NCBI RefSeq assembly: GCF_002909255.1
Contig: NZ_PIOB01000001.1
Span: 930,001 to 994,000 of the forward strand
Direction: 5' to 3'
Source: Arenibacter hampyeongensis
GTDB taxonomy: Bacteria > Bacteroidota > Bacteroidia > Flavobacteriales > Flavobacteriaceae
DNA: 64,000 bases
This document shows positions 10,217 to 22,124 of the stretch, in pieces. Made by a program: the position numbers and the translations under genes. Each line of letters starts with the position of its first letter. Within the stretch, counting starts at the first letter, position 1. The notes under the pieces are model-generated. The model saw only the letters and a list, made by a program, of their open reading frames with translations, was not told the origin of the DNA and searched no databases.

Positions 10217-10224
10217 TACTTTTG
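10217..10224 (+). promoter_or_regulatory. Candidate -7 element of the arginine/proline cluster
   Basis: TACTTTTG is an exact TAnnTTTG match. If the start of transcription lies the usual 5-8 bases downstream, it falls at about 10229-10233, almost on the ATG of the arginine leader peptide. The leader would then be translated with little or no 5' untranslated sequence. No good -33 TTG is seen. Confidence 0.5.
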
Positions 10225-10232
10225 ATGGTATA

Positions 10233-10316
10233 ATGAATAACTCATATTACATACTTAATGCTAACAAGGTGTCTGACCTTGCTTATTCATTTACGCCTAC
10301 ACGTCGTCGCCCGTAA
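10233..10316 (+). CDS. Arginine-rich leader peptide of the arg/pro cluster
   Basis: Short ORF of 27 codons plus TAA, not previously called as a gene. The peptide starts MNNSYYILNAN and ends TPTRRRP: codons 24-26 are CGT CGT CGC, immediately before a Pro codon and the stop. It is the only small ORF between the GT-C gene and the first arginine gene and lies directly behind a TACTTTTG promoter element. Tandem codons for the operon's own end product in a short upstream ORF are the hallmark of ribosome-mediated attenuation leaders. A 6-bp hairpin (CAAGGT/ACCTTG, 10265-10281) lies within it and a weaker one (CGCCC/GGGTG) spans the stop codon. Expression is unproven. Confidence 0.7.
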   Translation: MNNSYYILNANKVSDLAYSFTPTRRRP

Positions 10317-10402
10317 GGGTGCGCTTCTTTTATGGAAATAGGTGAGTCCATTTCCCTCTCAAAAAAAATAAATCATAATTTTAATTCTAAAAGCAACATT
10401 CA
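10317..10402 (+). promoter_or_regulatory. Untranslated region between leader peptide and GNAT gene
   Basis: 86 bp. GGAAAT (10334-10339) and ATTTCC (10350-10355) can form a hairpin with a 10-base loop. AGGG at the leader stop could instead pair with CCCT at 10354-10357, giving mutually exclusive folds. A run of eight A residues follows instead of a T tract, so a standard intrinsic terminator is not visible. Control might therefore act on translation or through Rho. Confidence 0.4.
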
Positions 10403-11032
10403 ATGAAGATTGTTATTGCTAACGATTCCCATTTTAAATATGCCGAGATCATCTGCGAAACCATTGCAGAGTCGGCCAAAGTGCGCGGCACCGGGATTGC
10501 TAAGCGTACTCCTGAATATATTCAAAAGAGACTGCATAATGGTAACGCTATTATCGCCTTGGATGGAGATAAATTTGCAGGTTTCTGCTATATAGAGGTC
10601 TGGGGACATGAGAAGTTTGTCGCCAATTCGGGCCTTATCGTACATCCGGATTATAGAAACCAGGGTTTGGCAAAGCAAATAAAAAAGGAAATTTTTGACC
10701 TATCCAGGAGTAAATTTCCCAATGCCAAAATATTTGGGATCACAACGGGATTGGCAGTGATGAAGATGAACTATGAACTGGGCTATAAACCGGTTACTTT
10801 TTCTGAACTCACTACAGATCCCGAGTTTTGGAAAGGCTGTCAGACTTGTAAAAATTTTGATATCCTTACCAGGACAGAACAAAAGATGTGTCTTTGTACC
10901 GGTATGCTGTACGACCCGGAAACTAAAGCAAAGGAAATCAAACAGGAGCCCAAGGAAAAATTAAATTCCAAGGCATTTCAAAGATTAAAAAGTATTAAGG
11001 AAAGTTTATTCCTAAACAAGAAAACAAAGTAG
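10403..11032 (+). CDS. GNAT acetyltransferase with C-terminal Cys4 motif, first gene of arg cluster
   Basis: N-acetyltransferase of 209 residues. The GNAT fold occupies residues about 1-140, with the acyl-CoA loop RNQGLA at 85-90 and a strand ending in LIVHPDYRNQG. A C-terminal extension contains Cys146, Cys149, Cys163 and Cys165 (CxxC and CxC), which looks like a small zinc- or iron-binding site, then a Lys-rich tail. As first gene of an arg cluster that otherwise lacks an N-acylglutamate synthase, it is the best candidate to acylate glutamate (acetyl or succinyl), the committed step. This is inference from position; the sequence only shows a GNAT. It follows the Arg leader peptide and precedes argG by 42 bp. 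Confidence 0.75.
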   Translation: MKIVIANDSHFKYAEIICETIAESAKVRGTGIAKRTPEYIQKRLHNGNAIIALDGDKFAGFCYIEVWGHEKFVANSGLIVHPDYRNQGLAKQIKKEIFDLSRSKFPNAKIFGITTGLAVMKMNYELGYKPVTFSELTTDPEFWKGCQTCKNFDILTRTEQKMCLCTGMLYDPETKAKEIKQEPKEKLNSKAFQRLKSIKESLFLNKKTK

Positions 11033-11074: not shown

Positions 11075-12265
11075 ATGAAGAAATTAGTTTTAGCATATAG
11101 TGGTGGATTGGACACTTCCTATTGTGCAAAGTATTTATCAAAGGATCAAGGATTTGAAGTACATGCCGTAAGTGTAAACACTGGTGGGTTTTCAAAGGAG
11201 GAAATAGATAGCATTCATAAAAAGGCCTTGGAGTTGGGGGCCACCTCATACACTTCTATAGATGCAGTACAAACCTTTTATGAAAAGGTAGTAAAGTATT
11301 TAATTTTTGGGAATGTATTAAAAAACAACACCTATCCTTTATCGGTAAGTGCGGAACGAATTGTTCAGGCCATTGAAATTGTAAACTACGCCAAAAAGGT
11401 AGGCGCCAAATATATTGCCCACGGTAGTACCGGGGCAGGGAACGATCAGGTAAGGTTTGATATGATCTTTCAGATTATCGCTCCAGAAATTGAAATCATT
11501 ACCCCTATAAGGGATAACAAATTGGCTAGGGAAGCTGAAATCGCATATTTAAAACAGAATGGGGTTGATTACCCTTGGGAAAAGGCCAAATACTCTATTA
11601 ATAGGGGTCTATGGGGTACCTCGGTTGGAGGTGAGGAAACACTTACCTCACATAAGTCTTTGCCCGATTCTGCTTATCCAAGTCAACTTCAAGAAACAGA
11701 ACCCAAACAATTGAAACTTACTTTTCACAAGGGAGAATTAATTGCTTTGGACGGTGATAACGATACTCCTGTGAACAATATCGTAAAATTGGAGGCTATT
11801 GCGTCCAAATATGCTATTGGTAGGGACATCCACGTTGGGGATACCATTATTGGCATCAAAGGTAGGGTAGGATTTGAAGCACCTGCTTCCTTGATCATAA
11901 TCAAGGCCCACCATTTGTTGGAAAAACACACCCTTACCAAATGGCAACAGTACCAAAAGGAACAACAAGGTAATTTCTATGGCATGTTGTTGCACGAAGG
12001 AAATTATTTGGATGAGGTAATGCGCAATATTGAGGCCTTCTTGACCGATACTCAAAAGAACGTTAGTGGTGATGTCTTTGTAAGTCTGCACCCTTATCGA
12101 TTTGAATTGGACGGGATATCCTCTTCGCACGATTTAATGAACGCCTCTTTTGGAAGCTATGGTGAGATGAACAAAGGATGGACCGCGGATGACGCCAAAG
12201 GATTTATTAAAATACTTTCCAATTCCGGAAAAATATATAACCACGTAAATCAGAATAATGATTAA
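11075..12265 (+). CDS. argG: Argininosuccinate synthase
   Basis: Joins citrulline and aspartate with ATP to argininosuccinate, the penultimate step to arginine. 396 residues, normal length. The ATP-pyrophosphatase P-loop is AYSGGLDTSYC at 8-18. Further hallmarks are the GSTGAGNDQVRFD block, which binds citrulline and aspartate, and the PWEKAKYSINRGLWG region. The stop overlaps the start of argC by 8 bp, showing tight coupling. Confidence 0.95.
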   Translation: MKKLVLAYSGGLDTSYCAKYLSKDQGFEVHAVSVNTGGFSKEEIDSIHKKALELGATSYTSIDAVQTFYEKVVKYLIFGNVLKNNTYPLSVSAERIVQAIEIVNYAKKVGAKYIAHGSTGAGNDQVRFDMIFQIIAPEIEIITPIRDNKLAREAEIAYLKQNGVDYPWEKAKYSINRGLWGTSVGGEETLTSHKSLPDSAYPSQLQETEPKQLKLTFHKGELIALDGDNDTPVNNIVKLEAIASKYAIGRDIHVGDTIIGIKGRVGFEAPASLIIIKAHHLLEKHTLTKWQQYQKEQQGNFYGMLLHEGNYLDEVMRNIEAFLTDTQKNVSGDVFVSLHPYRFELDGISSSHDLMNASFGSYGEMNKGWTADDAKGFIKILSNSGKIYNHVNQNND

Positions 12266-13232
12266 AGTAGGTATTATTGGTGGTTCGGGGTATACTGGAG
12301 GGGAACTCATTAGAATTCTCCTGAACCATCCCAGTGCAACTATAGATTTTGTTTTTAGTACTACCAGGGCGGGCAAAAAGGTTACCACGGCCCATCCGGA
12401 CCTATTGGGGGTTACCGATCTGGCATTTACAGGTGAGGTTAACAAGGATGTAGATGTGGTATTTCTTTGTCTTGGGCATGGGAACTCCACTAGTTTTTTA
12501 AAGGAAAATGAGTTTTCCAAAAATACCAAGATCATAGATTTGAGTAATGACTTTAGGCTGGAGGCCGATGCCGTTCTAGACGGAAAAGCTTTTGTCTACG
12601 GTTTGCCCGAACTTAAGAAGGAAGAAATTAGGAAGGCGAAATACATTGCCAACCCAGGTTGCTTTGCCACCGCCATCCAGTTGGGATTATTGCCATTGGC
12701 AAAGGCCCATAAACTGGATAAACCGGTACATGTCAATGCCGTTACCGGAAGTACAGGAGCAGGAGTAAGCCTTTCGTCAACCTCACATTTTAGCTGGAGG
12801 AACAACAACGTATCCTGGTATAAGCCTTTTACACACCAGCACCTTGGGGAGATAAATGAAAGCTTGCACAGTCTTCAAGAAAATACGGGGGAACTTTTTT
12901 TCCTACCTAATAGGGGTAATTTTACTAGAGGGATATTGGCCACGGCCTATACAGATTTTGATGGGAGTTTGGTAGAAGCCTATGAACTTTACAACGATTT
13001 TTATAAGGATGCGGTCTTTACACAGGTGACGGAAGAGGACATCAACCTAAAGCAGGTGGTGAATACCAACCAATGCCATATTCATTTGCACAAGCACAAC
13101 AATACCCTACTGATTACCTCTGCCATAGATAATTTATTGAAAGGGGCTTCAGGGCAGGCAGTACAAAATATGAATTTGGCCTTCGGATTTAAGGAAACAG
13201 AAGGCCTGCAATTAAAAGCCGGTGTATTTTAG
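12258..13232 (+). CDS. argC: N-acetyl(acyl)-gamma-glutamyl-phosphate reductase
   Basis: NADPH-dependent reduction of N-acylglutamyl phosphate to the semialdehyde, third step of arginine synthesis. 324 residues. The Rossmann motif is GGSGYTGGELIRIL at 8-21, the catalytic nucleophile is Cys135 in NPGCFATA, and SNDFR and GLPEL are family motifs. It begins inside the 3' end of argG (8-bp overlap). Whether the acyl group is acetyl or succinyl cannot be told from ArgC. Confidence 0.94.
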   Translation: MIKVGIIGGSGYTGGELIRILLNHPSATIDFVFSTTRAGKKVTTAHPDLLGVTDLAFTGEVNKDVDVVFLCLGHGNSTSFLKENEFSKNTKIIDLSNDFRLEADAVLDGKAFVYGLPELKKEEIRKAKYIANPGCFATAIQLGLLPLAKAHKLDKPVHVNAVTGSTGAGVSLSSTSHFSWRNNNVSWYKPFTHQHLGEINESLHSLQENTGELFFLPNRGNFTRGILATAYTDFDGSLVEAYELYNDFYKDAVFTQVTEEDINLKQVVNTNQCHIHLHKHNNTLLITSAIDNLLKGASGQAVQNMNLAFGFKETEGLQLKAGVF

Positions 13233-13262
13233 TATTGTTGGCCCTTGAATGGTAATGGCAAT

Positions 13263-13299
13263 ATTTAAACCGATCAACAATCATTTAAACCAATCAACA
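13263..13299 (+). repeat. Two-copy 20-bp-period direct repeat before proC
   Basis: ATTTAAACCGATCAACA and ATTTAAACCAATCAACA lie 20 bp apart with one mismatch, inside the 109-bp argC-proC gap. It could be a tandem protein-binding site or a replication-slippage product. Confidence 0.6.
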
Positions 13300-13300
13300 G

Positions 13301-13320
13301 CTTCCCACGGTTTTGGGAAG
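13301..13320 (+). promoter_or_regulatory. Hairpin directly upstream of proC
   Basis: CTTCCCA and TGGGAAG pair perfectly over a 6-base loop, 22 bp before the proC ATG. No T tract follows, so it is not a classical terminator. It may be an RNA-processing or stability element within the operon. Confidence 0.4.
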
Positions 13321-13341
13321 GTGATAAATAACTATTAAAGA

Positions 13342-14136
13342 ATGAAAATAGCCATAATTGGAACAGGTAATTTAGGGTTGTCCATAGCAAAAGGCATTTT
13401 GAACACTAACGGCGCCACATCCATGGTCCTTACCAAGAGAAATCTAAGTGGGCTTAAGGAAATTGAGAAATTTGGAATTGTGACCACTACCACTGATAAT
13501 AGGGAAGCAGTGTCCAAATCGGATATTCTAATATTTGCAGTTCAGCCAAACCAATTTGTAAAGATATTGGGGGAGGTTAAGGACATTCTTACAGATAAAC
13601 ATGTTATTATTTCCACCATTACCGGTTTTAGTATTGCCAAAATGGAAGAAGTTATTGGCCCTGATCACTATATTATTCGTGCCATGCCCAATACCGCTAT
13701 TTCTGTAGGGAAATCCATGACTTGTATCTGCTGCAATGAGAAGGGTGCCAAAAGGATCGACTTGGCCAAGGCCATCTTTAACCGTATGGGGCATTCCATG
13801 CAAATTCCGGAAGACCAGATGCAGGCCGCTACCGTTATTTGTGCCAGTGGAATTGCGTTTTGGATGCGATTGATACGTGCCACCACACAAGGGGCCATTC
13901 AATTGGGATTCGATGCCAAGGAAGCACAGGAATTGGCCATGCATACCTGTAATGGGGCTGCTAGTTTGTTGATAGAATCTGACAGTCACCCAGAAAATGA
14001 AATAGATAAGGTAACTACCCCAAGGGGATGCACCATTTCCGGATTGAACGAAATGGAACACCAGGGACTTAGTTCTTCCTTGATAAGAGGTATAGTTGCT
14101 TCATTCGACAAAATAAACGAGATTAAAAAAGGTTAA
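13342..14136 (+). CDS. proC: Pyrroline-5-carboxylate reductase
   Basis: Final step of proline synthesis, reducing pyrroline-5-carboxylate with NAD(P)H. 264 residues. The N-terminal Rossmann motif is IIGTGNLGLSIAKGIL. AVQPNQ, then RAMPNTAISVGKSMT, and the C-terminal TTPRGCTISGLNEME block are the conserved signature, the last forming the active site of the dimer. It sits between argC and argD, mixing proline and arginine genes in one cluster, which makes sense because both start from glutamate and use parallel chemistry. Confidence 0.93.
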   Translation: MKIAIIGTGNLGLSIAKGILNTNGATSMVLTKRNLSGLKEIEKFGIVTTTTDNREAVSKSDILIFAVQPNQFVKILGEVKDILTDKHVIISTITGFSIAKMEEVIGPDHYIIRAMPNTAISVGKSMTCICCNEKGAKRIDLAKAIFNRMGHSMQIPEDQMQAATVICASGIAFWMRLIRATTQGAIQLGFDAKEAQELAMHTCNGAASLLIESDSHPENEIDKVTTPRGCTISGLNEMEHQGLSSSLIRGIVASFDKINEIKKG

Positions 14137-14195
14137 CCTTGTCATTAAACCTACATGGTTTTTAGGCATAAGAGGTTCAAAATATAAGATATAAG

Positions 14196-15323
14196 ATGGA
14201 ATTATTTGATGTATACCCATTATATAACGTAACCCCTGTTTCGGCAAAGGGAATCGTGGTCACCGATGATAAAGGACAGGATTATTTGGATTTTTACGGT
14301 GGACATGCCGTAATCTCCATAGGACATTCCCACCCACATTATGTGCAAAGATTAAAGGAACAGTTGGACAAAATAGGTTTTTATAGCAATGCCATCCAGA
14401 ACCCTGTTCAAGAAGCCTTGGCGCATAAATTGGGGAAACTTTCGGGCTGTGAAAATTACAATCTCTTCCTGTGCAATTCAGGGGCGGAGGCCAACGAAAA
14501 TGCCTTAAAATTGGCATCTTTCCAAACAGGTAAATCTAGGGTAATCGCTTTTAAACACGGATTCCATGGGAGGACTTCTGCCGCTGTGGCCGCCACTGAC
14601 AATGAAAAAATAAATGCCCCTATAAACAAGCAACAAAAGGTAACCATACTTCCCTTCGAGGATTTGGCAGCGTTTAAAACCGAAATCTCCAAAGGAGATG
14701 TTTGTAGTGTGATCATAGAAACCATTCAAGGGGTAGGAGGTTTAGATCAACCTTCCCAAGAATTTTATCAAAATATAGCTTCCCTTAGTAAGGAAAATGG
14801 TGCCTTGCTTATTGCAGATGAGGTGCAATGTGGCTATGGTAGAAGCGGTAAGTTCTTTGCCTTTCAGCATTACGGAATCAAACCGGACATTATTACAGTA
14901 GCCAAGGGAATGGGTAACGGATTTCCTATTGGTGGAGTCCTGATCCATGAAAGTATTAAAGCTTCCTACGGAATGTTGGGAACCACTTTTGGCGGGAATC
15001 ATTTGGCCTGTGCCGCAGGACTGGCGGTATTGGAAGTAATCGAGAAAGAGAATTTAATAGAAAATGCCGCCGAACTTTTTGAATATTTCAAGGCAAAGGC
15101 AGCTGCTATCCCCCAGGTAAAAAGAGTAAAGGGAATGGGGCTTATGCTAGGGTTGGAATTTGATTTTGACGTGGCTGAGCTAAGAAAGAAATTGATCCAT
15201 AACCAACATATGTTTACCGGTGGCGCAAGCGATAAACACGTTTTGAGGGTATTGCCGGCATTGAATATTACCAAAGGAAATTTGGATCAATTTTTTGATG
15301 CCTTAAAAAAAGAATTGGCATGA
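14196..15323 (+). CDS. argD: Acetylornithine (acylornithine) aminotransferase
   Basis: PLP-dependent class III transaminase converting N-acylglutamate semialdehyde to N-acylornithine with glutamate as amino donor. 375 residues, typical of ArgD. It shows SGAEANENALKLA, the cofactor-holding LLIADEVQCGYGRSGK and Lys237 in VAKGMGNG as the Schiff-base lysine. TTFGGNHLACAAG follows. Its stop overlaps proA by 4 bp. It could also serve as an ornithine or succinylornithine transaminase. Confidence 0.92.
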   Translation: MELFDVYPLYNVTPVSAKGIVVTDDKGQDYLDFYGGHAVISIGHSHPHYVQRLKEQLDKIGFYSNAIQNPVQEALAHKLGKLSGCENYNLFLCNSGAEANENALKLASFQTGKSRVIAFKHGFHGRTSAAVAATDNEKINAPINKQQKVTILPFEDLAAFKTEISKGDVCSVIIETIQGVGGLDQPSQEFYQNIASLSKENGALLIADEVQCGYGRSGKFFAFQHYGIKPDIITVAKGMGNGFPIGGVLIHESIKASYGMLGTTFGGNHLACAAGLAVLEVIEKENLIENAAELFEYFKAKAAAIPQVKRVKGMGLMLGLEFDFDVAELRKKLIHNQHMFTGGASDKHVLRVLPALNITKGNLDQFFDALKKELA

Positions 15324-16516
15324 GTTTATATTTAGACATATCCCAAAGAAATGCGGTGCTCAATACCATGGCACAACTGATCGATGGGGAACGAAATACC
15401 ATTCTTGAGGTCAATAAGAAGGACCTGGAGGCCTATAATGGTGATGATTTGGCCATGTACGACCGACTAAAGGTTGACGATGCCAAGATTGAAGGTATGA
15501 TCTTATCCCTTCAGCAGTTGGCGGGCCAGGAAGATCCTTTGGGATTGGAGCGCTTTAATTTTACCCATGAAAATGGGATGCACGTCAGTAATAAAACGGC
15601 CCCTTTTGGCACGGTCCTGATCATTTATGAATCCAGGCCCGATGTTACCATAGAAGCGGCGGCCATTGCCTTTAAATCTGGCAACAAAATTTTGTTGAAA
15701 GGCGGAAAAGAATCGCTTCAAAGCAATTTGGTACTGGTAAATTTTTGGCATAAATCCTTGGAGCAACACGACATTTCCAAGGATTGGGTAACTTATTTGG
15801 AATTCAATAGGGAGCAGACCCAGGCCTTTTTGGAAAAGCCTACCCAAAAGCTGGATCTTATTGTACCTAGGGGAGGGGAAAAATTGATTGCGTTTACCAA
15901 AAAGCATGCTACATGCCCGGTAATCGTCAGTGGTAGAGGAAATAATTTCCTATACGTACATCCTAAGGCGGACCTTAAAAAGGCAATGTCTATTATTCTG
16001 AATGGGAAGACCACAAAGATTTCGGCATGTAATGCTTTGGATAAGGTGTTGATAGACAGTGAATTGCCCAACAAAGCAGCTTTTATAAAGGATTTGATAG
16101 CTGAATTAAAAGCGAAAAATGTAGAGATTTTAGTGGATAATAGTCTGGTTGGCACAACAGACACTTCAGCAATTATGGGAGAATGCATCTGGTTTGAGGA
16201 ATTTTTGGATTATAAGATTCTCATCGGGGAAGTAGGAAACACGGAGGAAGCTGTTGAAAAGATAAATACCTATGGCGGAGGCCATTCCGCGGTAATCGTT
16301 ACTGAGGAGGAGCAGGAGGCCAACCTATTTATGAATTCTGTGGATTCTGCGGCAGTATACCATAATGTATCCACCCGTTTTACGGATGGAGGACAATTTG
16401 GACTGGGCGGGGAACTGGCCATAAGTACGGATAAATTACACCAAAGGGGGCCCATAGGACTGCAACATTTGGTGACCAACAAATGGTATGTTAAAGGTGA
16501 TGGTCAAATAAGGTAG
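15320..16516 (+). CDS. proA: Glutamate-5-semialdehyde dehydrogenase (gamma-glutamyl phosphate reductase)
   Basis: NADPH-dependent reduction of glutamyl-5-phosphate, second step of proline synthesis. 398 residues, aldehyde-dehydrogenase fold. Signature elements are VLIIYESRPDVTIEAA near residue 100, the LIVPRGGEKLI loop, and the presumed catalytic Cys237 in ISACNALDKVLI. The C-terminal GGQFGLGGELAISTDKLH block is diagnostic. The start lies in the last codons of argD (ATGA overlap). Confidence 0.94.
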   Translation: MSLYLDISQRNAVLNTMAQLIDGERNTILEVNKKDLEAYNGDDLAMYDRLKVDDAKIEGMILSLQQLAGQEDPLGLERFNFTHENGMHVSNKTAPFGTVLIIYESRPDVTIEAAAIAFKSGNKILLKGGKESLQSNLVLVNFWHKSLEQHDISKDWVTYLEFNREQTQAFLEKPTQKLDLIVPRGGEKLIAFTKKHATCPVIVSGRGNNFLYVHPKADLKKAMSIILNGKTTKISACNALDKVLIDSELPNKAAFIKDLIAELKAKNVEILVDNSLVGTTDTSAIMGECIWFEEFLDYKILIGEVGNTEEAVEKINTYGGGHSAVIVTEEEQEANLFMNSVDSAAVYHNVSTRFTDGGQFGLGGELAISTDKLHQRGPIGLQHLVTNKWYVKGDGQIR

Positions 16517-16551
16517 TACCCAGACCTAACAATAGGTCTAAAAAAAAGAGC

Positions 16552-17313
16552 ATGCAGAAGAAAAGAATATTATTAAAAATAGGATCCAACACCCTTACCA
16601 AGGAAACAGACCATATTTCTAGGGGAAAAATTGAGGATATTGGTAGGCAGATTGCTAAACTTAAGGATAAGTACGAATTTATCATTGTAAGTTCAGGAGC
16701 CATAGCCGCCGCCAAACAGTTTGTAAAATTGGAACACAACGGGCAGGAGATTACCGTTAAGCAGGCCTTGGCCTCCATTGGGCAGCCCCATTTAATGCGT
16801 ATTTTCCAGGAGAATTTTAGAGAATTGGGATTATTTACCTCCCAATGTCTTTTATCATATTCCGATTTTGAAAGGGAAGTTTCCAAGGAAAATATCTGCA
16901 ATACCATCAATGTCCTGGTGGCCAATAACTTCATCCCGATTATTAACGAGAACGACACTGTTGCTACCGATGAGATTCAGTTTGGGGACAATGATAAATT
17001 AGCAGCGTTGACAGCCGCCTTGATGAAGGTTGATCTATTGGTCATAGCGACCAACACTGATGGTATTTACACCAAGGAATCATTTGCCGATAAGGATCCA
17101 AAAACCATTAGATTGGTAAGTAATTTAATCGATTTGCAAAAAGAGATAAGCAATTCCAAATCTTCCCATGGTACGGGGGGAATGGAATCCAAGATCGAGG
17201 CCGCCAATATAGCGAGAAAAGCAAATATTGAAACCTGGATCGTGAATGGCCTAAAAGACAATTTTATTATTGATGCCCTCGAAAACAAAACCGCTTTTAC
17301 AACCATAAAATAA
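16552..17313 (+). CDS. proB: Glutamate 5-kinase without PUA domain
   Basis: First committed step of proline synthesis, phosphorylating glutamate. 253 residues with only the amino-acid-kinase domain: ILLKIGSNTLTKE at the N-terminus, VSSGAIAAAK, IINENDTVATDEIQFGDND in the glutamate-binding loop and GTGGMESKIEAA near the end. The C-terminal PUA domain of the Escherichia coli enzyme is missing, a common short form. It precedes argF' by 4 bp. Confidence 0.93.
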   Translation: MQKKRILLKIGSNTLTKETDHISRGKIEDIGRQIAKLKDKYEFIIVSSGAIAAAKQFVKLEHNGQEITVKQALASIGQPHLMRIFQENFRELGLFTSQCLLSYSDFEREVSKENICNTINVLVANNFIPIINENDTVATDEIQFGDNDKLAALTAALMKVDLLVIATNTDGIYTKESFADKDPKTIRLVSNLIDLQKEISNSKSSHGTGGMESKIEAANIARKANIETWIVNGLKDNFIIDALENKTAFTTIK

Positions 17314-17317
17314 AGAA

Positions 17318-18256
17318 ATGCAACACTATTTATCCTTAAAAGATATCGATTCCCTACCGCAATGGGTGGAAGAAGCTAGATCATTAAAGGCGAATCCGCT
17401 TCAATTCAAAGCTTTGGGACAGACCAAGACCATATGTTTATTATTCTTCAACAACAGCCTTAGAACCCGTTTAAGCACACAAAAAGCGGCCATGAACTTA
17501 GGGATGGAAGTTATTGTGATGAACTTTGGAAGCGAAGGATGGGCGTTGGAATATGGAGACGGTACCATCATGGACCAAGGCACTTCCGAACACATCAAGG
17601 AAGCTGCTCAAGTAGTGGCCCAATATTGTGATATAGTAGCTATTAGGGCCTTTGCCTCTTTGACCCATAAGGAACAGGACGAGGCTGAGGTGGTCATGAA
17701 TGGTTTTAAAAAATATGCCGGTATTCCGGTGGTGAATATGGAAAGCTCTGTGGGGCATCCTTTACAGGCTTTGGCTGATGCTATTACCCTTGCGGAAAAC
17801 AATACAAAGAAAAGACCCAAGGTGGTCTTGTCCTGGGCACCACATCCAAAGGCATTGCCACATGCAGTGGCCAATTCCTTTGTGGAAATGATGCATTTGC
17901 AGGAGGCCGATTTTGTTATCACCCATCCCAAAGGATACGATTTAAATCCGGAGGTGACCAAGGGCGCCAAAATAGAATTCGATCAGGACAAGGCTCTGGA
18001 AGATGCCGATTTTGTTTATGTAAAAAACTGGAGCAGCTATCAGGATTATGGTAAGGTGGTAAACCAGGATAAGAATTGGACCATGACCAATAAAAAATTA
18101 GGCCATGCCAAGTTCATGCACTGTTTGCCCGTAAGACGAAATGTGGTAGTAGCCGATGAGGTTTTGGACGGCAATAACTCCTTGACCATTCAACAGGCCA
18201 ATAATAGGACCTATTCTGCACAGATCGTGTTGAAGAAGTTGTTGGAGAGCTTGTAG
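17318..18256 (+). CDS. argF': N-acetylornithine / N-succinylornithine carbamoyltransferase
   Basis: Transfers carbamoyl to an N-acylated ornithine, the route used by Bacteroidota and xanthomonads instead of free ornithine. 312 residues. The carbamoyl-phosphate motif is SLRTRLSTQ (47-55, the expected SxRT), with VGHPLQALAD and HCLPVRRN completing the active site. The residue known to set acyl-group preference (Pro90 in the Bacteroides fragilis succinyl enzyme, Glu92 in the Xanthomonas acetyl enzyme, from memory of the published structures) is Ser90 here, in MDQGTSEHI. The preferred acyl group is therefore open. It is the last gene before a 660-bp repeat island. Confidence 0.9.
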   Translation: MQHYLSLKDIDSLPQWVEEARSLKANPLQFKALGQTKTICLLFFNNSLRTRLSTQKAAMNLGMEVIVMNFGSEGWALEYGDGTIMDQGTSEHIKEAAQVVAQYCDIVAIRAFASLTHKEQDEAEVVMNGFKKYAGIPVVNMESSVGHPLQALADAITLAENNTKKRPKVVLSWAPHPKALPHAVANSFVEMMHLQEADFVITHPKGYDLNPEVTKGAKIEFDQDKALEDADFVYVKNWSSYQDYGKVVNQDKNWTMTNKKLGHAKFMHCLPVRRNVVVADEVLDGNNSLTIQQANNRTYSAQIVLKKLLESL

Positions 18257-18375
18257 GGGTAGGCTTTTGGAAGTTGGCAGTAATCAGTATACAATTGGAA
18301 GTTGACAGTGAACAGTGGGCAGTATACAGTTATCAGTAAACAGTATTCAGTGAGCAATAGCAATGTCTTATGCTC

Positions 18376-18428
18376 GTCACTTCGAGTGGTTTTATGGAGT
18401 GAAACGAAATAAAATTGTATCGAGAAGT
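18376..18428 (+). repeat. 53-bp repeat R2, copy 1
   Basis: Begins GTCACTTCGAGTGGTTTTAT and ends TGTATCGAGAAGT; the ends are imperfect inverted repeats (ACTTCGA / TCGAGAAGT). A second full copy of the same length, with only a few substitutions, lies at 22184-22236, and a fragment at about 30907-30925. Resembles flavobacterial REP-like spacer elements. Confidence 0.75.
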
Positions 18429-18477
18429 TAAAGGTGTAAAGTAAACAGTGAGCAGTAACTAGTAAACAGATTTTTTT

Positions 18478-18520
18478 GCTGCGCTACGCTTGCCTGACGG
18501 CTGGGCAGGCTCGCAATGAC
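18478..18520 (+). repeat. Hairpin repeat R3, copy 1
   Basis: Contains TGCCTGACGGCTGGGCAGGC, able to form a hairpin, and ends TCGCAATGAC. Related copies are at 18734-18776, 26096-26137, 32231-32298 and, inverted, 26546-26590. Confidence 0.7.
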
Positions 18521-18531
18521 CAAAATAGGTG

Positions 18532-18600
18532 GCTCCTTCCCTTGGTTAAGGAAAGGTGGATTCTCCGACCATAGGAGGAGAAGACGGAAGGGATTGAAAC
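18532..18600 (+). repeat. 69-bp repeat R4, copy 1
   Basis: Starts GCTCCTTCCCTTGGTTAAGG and ends GACGGAAGGGATTGAAAC; the CTTCC and GGAAG ends are complementary. Copies: 18788-18855, 22315-22396 (diverged, with an insertion) and 26337-26428 (with an insertion). Confidence 0.75.
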
Positions 18601-18733
18601 TAAAGGTTAATTCTTTTGCTCGAATAGTATTAATTAGTGCCACGTCAGTAGACTTTACTCTGCAAGGAGTGTTAGGCATTTGGCAGTTAACTGTAATGGG
18701 AAACAGTGAAAAGTAATAAGTAAACAGATTTTT

Positions 18734-18776
18734 GCCGCGCTATTCCTGCCTGATGGCTAGGCAGACTCGCAATGAC
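18734..18776 (+). repeat. Hairpin repeat R3, copy 2
   Basis: Same layout as the copy at 18478-18520, with a GCCTGATGGCTAGGC hairpin core and a TCGCAATGAC end. Confidence 0.65.
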
Positions 18777-18787
18777 GAAAATTAAGC

Positions 18788-18855
18788 GCTCCTTCCCTTA
18801 GCAAGGGAAGGTGGATTCTCCGACCATAGGAGGAGAAGACGGAAGGGATTGAAAC
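18788..18855 (+). repeat. 69-bp repeat R4, copy 2
   Basis: Nearly identical to 18532-18600 from TGGATTCTCCGACCATAGGA to the GATTGAAAC end. The two copies lie 256 bp apart in the same orientation, each preceded by an R3 copy, so R3-R4 is a composite unit duplicated here. Confidence 0.75.
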
Positions 18856-18918
18856 CGTAGGCTGGTTAATTTGAGCAAAAAGATCAATTACACCCCAAGC
18901 GGGTAGTAAAAAAAGAAC

Positions 18919-19698
18919 ATGAAACAAAAACTATCTATAATAAAAATTGGTGGGAACGTAATTGAGAATGAAGGGGAACTCAACAAGTTTCTGGATTCCT
19001 TTTCCGCCATGGAAGGCCCTAAAATTTTGGTGCACGGTGGTGGCAAACTGGCTACCCAAATCGCAGAAAAGTTGGGAATCGAATCCAAATTGGTAGGAGG
19101 AAGACGTATTACCGATGAAGAGGGACTAAAGGTAATTACAATGGTCTACGGCGGGTTGGCCAACAAGAATATTGTGGCACAATTACAGGCCAGAGGAGCA
19201 AACGCCATTGGCCTTAGTGGTGCCGATGGGAATACCATTCGGGCCGTGAAAAGACCGGTACGGGAAATAGACTACGGATTTGCGGGAGATGTGGAGGAAG
19301 TAAATGCAGCGGCAATTGACAAATTGTTGCAGGCCGAATTTGTTCCGGTCTTTTGTGCCATCACCCATAACAAAGAAGGGCAGTTGCTGAACACCAATGC
19401 CGATACCATTGCCTCGGAAGTGGCCATTGGGATGAGCGGGAACTATGACACCACTCTTTACTATTGTTTTGAAAAGAAAGGGGTATTGTTGGATATTGCG
19501 GACGAGACCTCGGTTGTAAAACACCTGGAGCCTAAGAACTACCAGGATTTATTGGAAAAGAAAATTATAGCGGATGGCATGCTTCCAAAATTGGAAAATT
19601 GCTTCCATGCGCTTCATAAAAATGTGGGCAAGGTCTGTATTGGGGACTTGGATATGCTAAACCCTAAAACCACCTTATTTACCACGATTACCTTATAA
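18919..19698 (+). CDS. argB: N-acetyl(acyl)glutamate kinase
   Basis: Phosphorylates N-acylglutamate, second step of arginine synthesis. 259 residues, amino-acid-kinase fold: IIKIGGNVIE at 6-15, LVHGGGKLATQIA near 40, NTNADTIASEVAIG and DGMLPKLENC in the second half. The N-terminal helix found in arginine-inhibited hexameric kinases is missing (the protein starts directly with MKQKLSIIKIGG), so direct feedback inhibition is less likely. It follows the repeat island and is two bases from argE. Confidence 0.93.
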   Translation: MKQKLSIIKIGGNVIENEGELNKFLDSFSAMEGPKILVHGGGKLATQIAEKLGIESKLVGGRRITDEEGLKVITMVYGGLANKNIVAQLQARGANAIGLSGADGNTIRAVKRPVREIDYGFAGDVEEVNAAAIDKLLQAEFVPVFCAITHNKEGQLLNTNADTIASEVAIGMSGNYDTTLYYCFEKKGVLLDIADETSVVKHLEPKNYQDLLEKKIIADGMLPKLENCFHALHKNVGKVCIGDLDMLNPKTTLFTTITL

Positions 19699-19700
19699 AC

Positions 19701-20768
19701 ATGGATCAACAAAAACTTACGGAAAAGGCTATTGCATTGTTACAGGAACTGATTTCAATTCAGTCGTTTTCCTCCGAAGAAGATAAAACGGCAAATGCCA
19801 TTGAAGCATGGTTTACACACTTCAACATCCCTTTTAAACGGGAGAAGAACAATGTGTATGCCTTTAATAAATACTATGATGAGAACAAGCCGTTATTATT
19901 ATTAAACTCGCACCACGATACGGTAAAGCCCAATTCGGCCTATACCAAAGACCCTTTTCATCCACATATTGAGGATGGAAAATTATTTGGTTTGGGCAGT
20001 AATGACGCCGGAGGATGTCTGGTATCATTGATCGCTACCTTTACCCATTTTTACGCCCAGGAAAACCTAAACCATAACATGGTAATCGTGGCCTCTGCAG
20101 AAGAGGAAAGTTCAGGGCCCAATGGTCTAAACAGTATGTTGCTCATCCTTCCAAAAATAGATGTGGCCATAGTAGGGGAACCTACTTTGATGAATTTGGC
20201 CATTGCCGAAAAAGGCTTGGTGGTTTTTGAGGGCAAGGTAAGTGGAACACCCTCGCATGCCGCCCACCCGAACGATAATAACGCCATTTACAATACCATT
20301 GAGGTACTACAGTGGTTTAAGGACTATAAGTTTCCCAAAGTATCCGAAGTGTTGGGCGAAGTAAAGCTTACGGTAACCCAGATAAGTGCCGGTAACCAGC
20401 ACAATGTTGTGCCCGGACATGTGGATCTGGTAATAGACGTGCGTGTAAACGACTGTTATACCAACAAGGAAATCGCGGATATGCTCACTGCGGAAGCACC
20501 CTGCGAGGTAAAACCCCGTTCTTTACGCTTAAACTCTTCTTCCATCAATAGGGAACATCCTTTGGTTAAATCGGGCTTGGCCTTGGGCAGAAGCAGCTAT
20601 GGTTCACCTACCCTTTCGGATCAGGCGGCCTTATACTGTCAGTCATTAAAATTGGGACCTGGAGATAGCACCCGTAGTCACTCCGCGGATGAATTTATTT
20701 ATGTAGCGGAAATTGAAGAAGGAATAGATTTGTATATTCAGATCTTGCAAGGATTCTTGAAACAATGA
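19701..20768 (+). CDS. argE: Acetylornithine/acylcitrulline deacylase, M20 family
   Basis: Zinc-dependent M20 peptidase-family deacylase (355 residues) that removes the acyl group. In the argF' pathway the substrate should be N-acylcitrulline. Metal-site motifs are LLNSHHDTVKP, GLGSNDAGGC and the catalytic pair in ASAEEESSGPNG. A dimerisation domain with GTPSHAAHP follows, and HSADEF near the C-terminus supplies a metal ligand. Located between argB and argH. Confidence 0.92.
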   Translation: MDQQKLTEKAIALLQELISIQSFSSEEDKTANAIEAWFTHFNIPFKREKNNVYAFNKYYDENKPLLLLNSHHDTVKPNSAYTKDPFHPHIEDGKLFGLGSNDAGGCLVSLIATFTHFYAQENLNHNMVIVASAEEESSGPNGLNSMLLILPKIDVAIVGEPTLMNLAIAEKGLVVFEGKVSGTPSHAAHPNDNNAIYNTIEVLQWFKDYKFPKVSEVLGEVKLTVTQISAGNQHNVVPGHVDLVIDVRVNDCYTNKEIADMLTAEAPCEVKPRSLRLNSSSINREHPLVKSGLALGRSSYGSPTLSDQAALYCQSLKLGPGDSTRSHSADEFIYVAEIEEGIDLYIQILQGFLKQ

Positions 20769-20843
20769 ACAATTAGCAATTAACAATTAAAAATGTAGAT
20801 TTTTCATTGTAATTGACCATTAATAAACAAACAAAAACGACAA

Positions 20844-22124
20844 ATGAAACTTTGGGACAAAGGATTTAGCACCGACAAAAAAATAGACCATTTCACGGTG
20901 GGCAATGATAGGGAACTGGATTTGCTTTTGGCAAAATACGACGTAATCGCCTCCAAGGCACATGCAAAAATGCTGGGTAAAATTGGTCTGTTGACCCTTA
21001 AGGAAACCGATTCCCTGGTACATGAGTTGGACAATATAGCCAAGACCATAGAGAACGGCACCTTTACCATAGAGGATAGTTTTGAGGACATGCATTCCAA
21101 GATTGAATTCCTGCTAACCCTAAGGTTGGGCGATGCCGGTAAAAAGATCCACACCGCCCGATCTAGGAACGATCAAGTTTTGGTGGCCATGCATTTGTAC
21201 CTAAAGAACGAATTATCAGAGATCAAGGAACTGACCAAGGATTTGTTCCACCTCTTATTAATTTTGGCCGATAAGCATAAAAAAGTGATGTTGCCGGGCT
21301 ATACCCACTTGCAGATTGCCATGCCCTCCTCCTTTGGACTATGGTTCTCCGCCTATGCCGAAAGTTTGGTAGACGATCTTTATTTTGTGGATGCCGCCTA
21401 TAAGGTAGCCGATCAAAACCCCTTGGGAAGTGCTGCGGGTTATGGAAGTTCTTTCCCTATAGACCGTAGTTTTACTACTGAGGAAATGGGCTTTGAAACC
21501 ATGAAATACAATGTAGTGGCCGCACAAATGGGCCGTGGCAAGGTAGAAAAAGCAGCAGCCTTTGGGATGAGTAGTATTGCCTCCACCCTGTCCAAAATGG
21601 CGATGGATATCTGCCTGTATATGAGCCAGAACTTTAATTTTGTCTCCTTCCCGGATGAGCTTACAACAGGTTCCAGCATTATGCCCCATAAGAAAAACCC
21701 TGATGTTTTTGAATTGGTGCGGGGTAAGTGTAACCGACTTCAAACCGTGCCCAACCAATTGGTATTGATCACCAACAACCTGCCCAGTGGCTATCACCGG
21801 GACCTGCAATTGGTAAAAGAGGTAATCGTACCTGCCATACAGGACCTAAAGGCCTGTTTGGAAATCCTGACCTTTAGTTTAAAGGAGATACGGGTCAACG
21901 AAAATATTTTGGACGATCCCAAATACGACTATTTGTTTAGTGTGGATACTTTGAACGAATTGGTATTGACTGGCACTCCTTTCCGTGATGCCTATAAGAA
22001 AATGGGCAAGGAGATCAATGAAGGTACCTTTACTCCCAAAAGGGATATACGCCACACCCACGAAGGCAGTTTTGGCAACCTTTGCTTGGCAGAGATCAGA
22101 AAGAAAATGGATAAGATTTCCTGA
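20844..22124 (+). CDS. argH: Argininosuccinate lyase
   Basis: Last step of arginine synthesis, splitting argininosuccinate to arginine and fumarate. 426 residues, fumarase/aspartase superfamily. Conserved blocks are MHSKIEFLLT, HTARSRNDQVLVAMHLYL, MLPGYTHLQIAMPSSFG and the family signature GSSIMPHKKNPD, which contains the catalytic serine loop. Separated from argE by 75 bp with short AT-rich repeats. It closes the cluster and is followed by a repeat island. Confidence 0.94.
   Translation: MKLWDKGFSTDKKIDHFTVGNDRELDLLLAKYDVIASKAHAKMLGKIGLLTLKETDSLVHELDNIAKTIENGTFTIEDSFEDMHSKIEFLLTLRLGDAGKKIHTARSRNDQVLVAMHLYLKNELSEIKELTKDLFHLLLILADKHKKVMLPGYTHLQIAMPSSFGLWFSAYAESLVDDLYFVDAAYKVADQNPLGSAAGYGSSFPIDRSFTTEEMGFETMKYNVVAAQMGRGKVEKAAAFGMSSIASTLSKMAMDICLYMSQNFNFVSFPDELTTGSSIMPHKKNPDVFELVRGKCNRLQTVPNQLVLITNNLPSGYHRDLQLVKEVIVPAIQDLKACLEILTFSLKEIRVNENILDDPKYDYLFSVDTLNELVLTGTPFRDAYKKMGKEINEGTFTPKRDIRHTHEGSFGNLCLAEIRKKMDKIS

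Follow-up and report, generated by a model that had tools for sequence, protein, structure and literature searches.

Organization of the arginine locus

The DNA analysed here (the window) is a 64,000-nt stretch of the forward strand of the Arenibacter hampyeongensis genome (assembly GCF_002909255.1, contig NZ_PIOB01000001.1, positions 930,001–994,000), and the coordinates below are those of the window. It contains an arginine/proline biosynthesis cluster preceded by the following features.

10217..10224, + strand: presumed promoter -7 box TACTTTTG, Bacteroidota type (from the sequence, by consensus)
10233..10316, + strand: candidate Arg leader ORF of 27 codons, MNNSYYILNANKVSDLAYSFTPTRRRP-stop (present in 80/80 fetched relatives, with frame-specific substitutions)
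10302..10313, + strand: codons CGT CGT CGC (Arg), then CCG (Pro) (codon counts over 81 loci)
10308..10321, + strand: predicted hairpin 1, CGCCC-GUAA-GGGUG, with the leader stop codon in its loop and a T-rich spacer after it (alignment)
10334..10355, + strand: predicted hairpin 2, GGAAAU-A-GG-UGAGU-CC-AUUUCC (one genomic copy; compensatory changes)
10403..11032, + strand: GNAT-family N-acetyltransferase gene, the first gene of the arg cluster (PF00583, PF13508)
11075..22124, + strand: remainder of the cluster (NCBIfam and Pfam comparison)

A preliminary description of this DNA had placed a 27-codon ORF ending in CGT CGT CGC CCG TAA between a promoter element and the first arg gene, and this arrangement is confirmed at 10233–10316. 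The ORF begins 8 nt after TACTTTTG, which we take, from the consensus, to be a Bacteroidota-type -7 promoter box, and it ends 86 nt before the GNAT gene. If the start site falls a few bases past the box, as the consensus would have it, the transcript would carry almost no 5′ untranslated region. Leaderless mRNAs are given as 5.5% of the 890 mapped in Flavobacterium psychrophilum (PMC9723704).

The cluster genes are arranged in the order GNAT, argG, argC, proC, argD-like, proA, proB, argF-like carbamoyltransferase, argB, argE-like and argH-like lyase. The GNAT gene (10403–11032) has no NCBIfam match; the best matches of the argD-like, argF-like and argE-like genes fall under the NCBIfam cut-offs, and the argH-like lyase was assigned from Pfam alone. 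The nearest family of the argF-like carbamoyltransferase (17318–18256) is N-acetylornithine carbamoyltransferase, with 276.4 bits against a curated cut-off of 288; acylated intermediates may therefore be in use in this pathway, as judged from this sub-threshold match. The cluster also contains a 662-base gap (18257–18918) on the 5′ side of argB, where a stretch like gctccttccctt..aaggtggattctccgaccataggaggagaagacggaagggattgaaa is found in two imperfect copies, along with degenerate repeats of the acagt type.

Conservation and coding pattern of the leader ORF

A search by similarity of the GNAT protein confirmed 505 public genome loci as relatives, and the best 80 of these were compared with the window, giving 81 loci; named genera among the 80 include Arenibacter, Maribacter, Zobellia and Flagellimonas, and some loci derive from metagenome assemblies. 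A promoter box of the form T[TC]GTAC[AT]TT is found in 81/81 loci, with the ATG beginning 6–10 positions beyond the end of the 11-base box, and all 81 have an ATG-initiated ORF of 25–29 codons at the same place. Short ORFs are common, and 281 of 1580 shuffled upstream regions reach three Arg in eight codons (see below), such that a single occurrence could be a chance ORF. The preservation of its place in every locus leads us to count that explanation as refuted.

The preliminary description predicted that an ORF with C-terminal Arg codons would be kept across relatives while the remainder drifts, and that relatives lacking such an ORF would speak against an arginine leader. The ORF is present in all 80 fetched relatives (the best 80 of 505), and its last residues are kept while the first half drifts. 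The encoded peptide ends in RRP-stop in 79/81 loci and in PRP-stop in the other two. More specifically, RRRP is found in 75/81, a different residue before RRP in 4/81, and RPRP in 2/81; a first scan of the 80 relatives had likewise identified RR near the ORF end in 78, with the two others (L074 and L079) having an ORF that ends in PRP. The number of Arg among the last eight residues ranges from 2 to 5.

Codons −2 (CGC) and −1 (CCG), counted from the stop, are invariant in all 81 loci. Codon −3 is CGT in 57, CGC in 22 and CCC in 2 (Arg in 79/81), and codon −4 is CGT in 52, CGC in 25 and each of four others once (Arg in 77/81). Neither codon −3 nor codon −4 is part of the conserved 5-bp stem of hairpin 1, and the exchange of CGT and CGC with retention of Arg thus speaks for selection on arginine. 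Arg codon usage in the leader is also distinctive, with CGT or CGC in 322 of 337 Arg codons; the GNAT genes of these loci have them in 188 of 650 and use AGA most often. Pooled over 368 pairs of loci with leaders of equal length that differ by no more than 35%, the pN/pS ratio is 0.54 in the leader frame versus 0.88 and 1.43 in the shifted frames. This substitution pattern suggests that the leader ORF is apparently translated.

A conserved ORF with a coding-like pattern could also encode a small functional protein acting in trans. We consider this extremely improbable, since conservation is limited to the last residues and the first half drifts.

A conserved predicted two-hairpin RNA element

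The end of the leader and the bases that follow appear to form a conserved two-hairpin RNA element that has no match in Rfam. The motif of hairpin 1, CGCCCGTA[AG]GGG, is present in 81/81 loci, and a near-invariant CGYCGYCGCCCGTARGGG is followed by a spacer and then by TWTGGAAATAGGTGAGTCCATTTCC; the distance from CCGTARGGG to AGGTGNGTCC is 19–21 nt in every locus. The last Arg codon of the leader serves as the 5′ arm of hairpin 1, with the other Arg codons directly in front of this hairpin. No covariation of its own was seen for hairpin 1 in the aligned rows (73 distinct), and its outermost pair is unformed in 15 of these.

Covariation gives moderate support for hairpin 2 as an RNA structure. 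In a fixed register, two pairs (four cells) are changed on both sides among the 73 distinct rows; 0 of 500 shuffles reach four cells and 29 of 500 reach two pairs. One pair is broken in 13 of the 73 rows. With the partners slid by +2, the covariation score rises from 0.027 to 0.044, though the proportion of formed pairs drops from 96.8% to 46.6%. When the bulge is fitted for each locus, a procedure that favours pairing, the 17 distinct stems from 96 loci form pairs 1–6 from the loop in 17/17, pair 7 in 16/17 and pair 8 in 11/17. Stem exchanges among the 96 loci include GC to AT, AT to CG and AT to GC. The loop is UGAGU in 87 loci and UGUGU in 9, and the bulge is A in 71, UA in 24 and AA in one.

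Hairpin 2 is a near-palindrome, and a DNA operator was considered as an alternative for this part of the element. The element occurs once in its own genome (at most three mismatches; the next match of the model has an E-value of 0.64). The single copy, the conserved 1–2 nt bulge, the conserved loop and the compensatory changes speak for RNA, short of proof, and the operator was not favoured. A pairing of CGCC (hairpin 1) with GGUG (hairpin 2), proposed by eye, was set aside, being broken in two diverged loci (L095 and L124).

The Rfam covariance models gave no match in the window at the gathering score; the one sub-threshold match (E-value 2.1) covers the GNAT start rather than the hairpin element. 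The fold of the leader region as a whole is not clearly better than that of shuffled sequences (z-scores of −1.5 and −1.3), and the fold predicted for the window also pairs some bases of codons −3 and −4. Between hairpin 2 and the GNAT start, the predicted fold is unstructured and the sequence is poorly conserved as far as the CAATG of the start, which argues against a simple masking of the start codon.

A competing reading is that nothing but a protein-binding element of RNA or DNA is conserved, with Arg codons that arise incidentally from the CG-rich 5′ arm of hairpin 1. Compatible with it are the near-invariance of the nucleotides around the stop codon, the very high conservation of the non-coding hairpin 2, the partial pairing of codons −3 and −4 in the fold of the window and the existence of four diverged loci without an ATG for the frame (see below). 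We judge this reading very unlikely, because codons −3 and −4 are outside the conserved stem and swap CGT and CGC with Arg kept, the ORF is maintained over 25–29 codons with a frame-specific pattern, and other families pair Arg-rich ORFs with other hairpins.

Terminator scans, with the his and ilv leaders as controls

The leaders were scanned for intrinsic terminators with strict (perfect stem of at least 6 bp, 6 T in 8) and loose (stem of 5 bp, 5 T in 8) settings. The strict scan is positive in 2/81 arg leaders, both times inside the leader ORF and upstream of the hairpin element. Elsewhere, it is positive in 1 of 33 loci chosen from other genomes and in the his and ilv leaders of the A. hampyeongensis genome. 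The loose scan flags 35/81 arg leaders, the window included, and all 35 hits are at hairpin 1. The spacer after hairpin 1 is T-rich (586 T vs 307 A over the 81 loci), and 5 T in 8 occur after hairpin 1 in 42/81 loci; shuffled spacers give a mean of 34.1, with 16 of 500 shuffles reaching 42. The T runs are thus little above the level of shuffled spacers, and weak termination at hairpin 1 is possible. Termination at hairpin 2 was rejected, as none of the 81 loci has at least 5 T in the 8 nt starting 0–3 nt after it. In a search of the alignments by eye, which was not exhaustive, no conserved alternative pairing that could act as an antiterminator was seen at the arg leader.

Attenuators of the his, trp and leu type employ an intrinsic terminator and an alternative antiterminator. 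The preliminary description drew an analogy to these systems, which the comparison does not support in that form. The short ORF, the clustered Arg codons and the promoter spacing (81/81) bear it out; the strong terminator (2/81 in the strict scan) does not. The arg leader would work like an attenuator and yet, under the strict scan, lack one of the defining features of that class, the intrinsic terminator.

The same genome contains leaders of the ordinary kind. Upstream of hisG (L198, G000:C23) is a His-rich leader, MKNNRTHHHHFFTCSQAS, followed by an 11-bp terminator with a T tail, which looks like an ordinary his attenuator. Upstream of ilvD (L199, G000:C23) is an Ile/Val-rich leader, MKINVNIINVVIIIP, followed by a 17-bp terminator with a T run; no such leader was found upstream of a second gene of the ilvD family (L200). 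For other amino acids, this organism thus apparently relies on leader attenuators of the ordinary type, with an arg leader that is built otherwise. The presence of the his and ilv leaders makes leader-peptide sensing plausible at the arg cluster.

Distribution of the leader and its element in Bacteroidota

A model of the hairpin element (R2) was searched against 395 sampled Bacteroidota genomes and gave strong matches (E-value ≤2.3e-5) in 15, all of them in the same family as A. hampyeongensis and all upstream of GNAT by coordinates. This phylum-wide search (>40 genomes) ran under stricter filters, and it missed one locus (L124) that has the element. The remaining matches (E-value 0.002 and above) were taken for chance; the sequence was viewed around 15 of them (L098–L112).

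An ATG-initiated ORF ending in Arg-Pro-stop is found at 12 of the 15 strong matches, including L087 with a C-terminus of APRRRRP. Four diverged loci of the family (L095, L096, L097 and L124) have an open Arg-Pro frame with no ATG in the stretch read, and a non-ATG start or loss of translation is possible in these cases. Their hairpin 1 loops are UUAG, UUU, UUUU and CUAG, respectively. The frames of L096 and L097 extend past hairpin 1 and end in RRPLGA and VRPFGYDLH, which indicates that a stop codon in the loop is usual, not essential. L124 and another locus of the family missed by R2 (L132) end in RRP and RRRFRP, respectively.

A GNAT gene is present in 158 genomes, of which 15 were inspected and 79 were chosen by us for an ORF scan, with the other 64 left out. 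Scored by the best short ORF that precedes GNAT, 22/79 loci reach at least 4 Arg in 8 codons, as do 52/1580 shuffles and 4/79 antisense regions; for at least 3 Arg in 8 codons, the figures are 49/79, 281/1580 and 19/79, respectively. The shuffles keep dinucleotides approximately, and distances are approximate since the start finder did not find the GNAT ATG in 14/79 loci. The signal is clear in several families, with at least 4 Arg in 8 codons in 9/10 loci of f24 and at least 3 in 8/8 of f8, 11/12 of f4 and 6/8 of f3. It is weak in genus g2, which we take to be Flavobacterium (at least 3 Arg in 2 of 18 inspected loci), and in f2 (1/4, far upstream), while four loci of f25, f40 and f45 that reach 3 Arg were taken for chance. 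Arg-rich upstream ORFs thus appear to extend to several other Bacteroidota families, where they are not accompanied by this hairpin element. A hairpin around the stop is found in some of these other families too, an example being AGGGUUUGACCCU, identified by eye in 3 of 6 f8 loci folded.

These C-termini bear on the nature of the signal. TnaC, SpeFL and the fungal arginine attenuator peptide are arrest peptides whose action is induced by a ligand, and the leader could similarly be a nascent peptide that arrests the ribosome at its Pro-stop end on binding free arginine or a related metabolite, with codon charging not sensed. The Pro right before the stop (81/81), the RRRP end (75/81) and a Phe within the six residues preceding the last three (73/81) are compatible with such a peptide, whereas the variable number of Arg (2 to 5) in the last eight residues, the RRPLGA and VRPFGYDLH ends within the family, and endings such as PRRR, PRA, FRV and RGC in other families speak against a fixed arrest motif. 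Moreover, the Pro codon doubles as part of hairpin 1. We therefore regard peptide arrest as unlikely.

Other features were observed upstream of GNAT. Loci L118–L123, L125–L131 and L137 of genus g2 have another conserved ORF (e.g. MNKISLHITSLSRTNSPITSPEVRMLSL) with few Arg codons and a possible short hairpin inside. A downstream hairpin with a loop like CCUAYGYGG was seen by eye in six loci of f8 and f10 (L145, L146, L149, L152, L164 and L169); an alternative pairing is possible between its CCUA and a UAGG or AGGG next to hairpin 1. In five loci of f24 (L178, L179, L181, L183 and L184), folds read by eye predict that the leader (AGAATTGA type) pairs over a long range with a stretch 3′ of its stop, and the letters of this helix differ between the loci.

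Relationship to ArgR

ArgR, the arginine repressor, controls arg genes. Its DNA-binding family (PF01316) was found in 0 of 41 sampled genomes of the A. hampyeongensis family, the species' own genome included, and in 138 of the 395 sampled Bacteroidota genomes. An ArgR match is present in 6 of 158 GNAT-positive genomes (weak only in one, G030) versus 132 of 237 genomes without GNAT. In families f11 and f12, four of the five ArgR-positive genomes (G238, G347, G351 and G394), the four with a GNAT position to compare, have the argR match 300–360 nt upstream of GNAT on the same strand. This pattern is suggestive of an exchange of the Arg leader for ArgR. The exchange falls short of proven, because two of the three ArgR-bearing f11/f12 loci that were scanned also reach 3 Arg in 8 codons, elsewhere, at 57–15 nt (L195) and 414–363 nt (L196) upstream; the third (L197) does not. 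ArgR and the arg leader would be alike in linking arg genes to arginine, with the difference that ArgR is a DNA-binding protein that the family of A. hampyeongensis appears to lack.

Proposed mechanism

Taken together, the leader probably senses arginine for the arg/pro cluster by ribosome stalling on its Arg codons. The pattern, as a rule, is a short ORF behind a promoter box that ends in 2–4 Arg codons. This reading is supported by the fixed place of the ORF (81/81), the Arg kept at −3 and −4, the pN/pS of 0.54 and the CGT/CGC bias; by the Arg-rich ORFs in other families, the lack of ArgR (0/41) and the his and ilv leaders; and by the compensatory changes of hairpin 2 and the T-rich spacer after hairpin 1. 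Counted against it are the few strict terminators, T runs near the shuffled level and the lack of a visible antiterminator; hairpin 1 without covariation, the small number of covarying pairs in hairpin 2 and a leader fold close to that of shuffles; the four diverged loci with no ATG and the few Arg in g2 and f2; and the Arg-rich ORFs at two of three ArgR-bearing f11/f12 loci.

When charged tRNA-Arg reading CGT and CGC is scarce, the ribosome would stall on the Arg codons of the leader, cover hairpin 1 and hold it open, which would keep the cluster on. With ample arginine, the ribosome would reach the stop codon and depart; hairpin 1 would then form beside hairpin 2, and expression would drop. 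Candidate outputs are premature termination at hairpin 1 (weak, with a U-rich tail), Rho, mRNA decay or a factor that reads hairpin 2. Our own guess is a control at the level of transcription, in which RNA polymerase or an RNA-binding protein would read hairpin 2.

A more far-reaching version, which we put forward tentatively and hold to be possible rather than probable, is that this is an ancient arginine leader of Bacteroidota in which, where ArgR is absent, the stalled ribosome controls a two-hairpin signal whose output is other than intrinsic termination and which is read directly by RNA polymerase or by a dedicated RNA-binding factor. The features of this signal are the stop codon in the loop of hairpin 1 and the conserved bulge and UGWGU loop of hairpin 2. 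The missing strong terminator, together with the very conserved hairpin 2, suggests an output step other than the textbook one; a signal read by RNA polymerase or a factor would, if true, be a new kind of output for leader-peptide sensing. The leader would also explain a stretch that gene callers may skip.

Comparison with known leader peptides

The arg leader shares with the his, trp, leu and ilv attenuators a short ORF with clustered codons for the end product, located between the promoter and the cognate operon. It differs in that, at the hairpin element of the 81 leaders, the strict scan found no intrinsic terminator and inspection by eye no antiterminator, that the last Arg codon is inside a hairpin, and that a separate, very conserved hairpin follows.

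Three systems described in the literature have individual features in common with it. The leader orf34 of Salmonella speF is short and senses arginine through two consecutive Arg codons; no rho-independent terminator was found there, and a hairpin downstream of the stop matters (PMC6386406). It differs in controlling ornithine decarboxylase from a transcript start 516 nt upstream of speF, in involving Rho and RNase G, in its conserved peptide core HIRRT, and in being gammaproteobacterial (PMC6386406). The rbfL leader ORF of Staphylococcus aureus senses arginine restriction through slow decoding of Arg codons; unlike the arg leader, it relies on AGA and AGG, blocks the rbf ribosome-binding site, and precedes no arginine biosynthesis operon (PMC13009471). 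The uORFC-8-2 motif upstream of cysS in Rhodobacterales has tandem Cys codons inside the first of two stems, with the difference that a U run fitting an intrinsic terminator is found at its end and that the amino acid and the phylum are others (PMC8632094).

A literature search, with subscription journals mostly outside its reach, found no paper on an arginine leader in Bacteroidota, and no description of how arginine synthesis is controlled in Bacteroidota that lack ArgR was found in the literature searched; the leader offers a testable answer. A 2010 survey stated that, before its own case in Firmicutes, no leader peptide system had been shown outside Proteobacteria and Actinobacteria (PMC2965389). 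A study of F. psychrophilum, a member of the same family as A. hampyeongensis, reports "strong clues" that leader peptides act as attenuators in front of operons for amino acids, and the available part of its text names no arginine leader and no such element (PMC9723704). A leader peptide is mentioned for the carA promoter of Pseudomonas aeruginosa (PMC4997734), and the arginine genes of Zobellia galactanivorans were detected as a transcription unit (PMC5613140).
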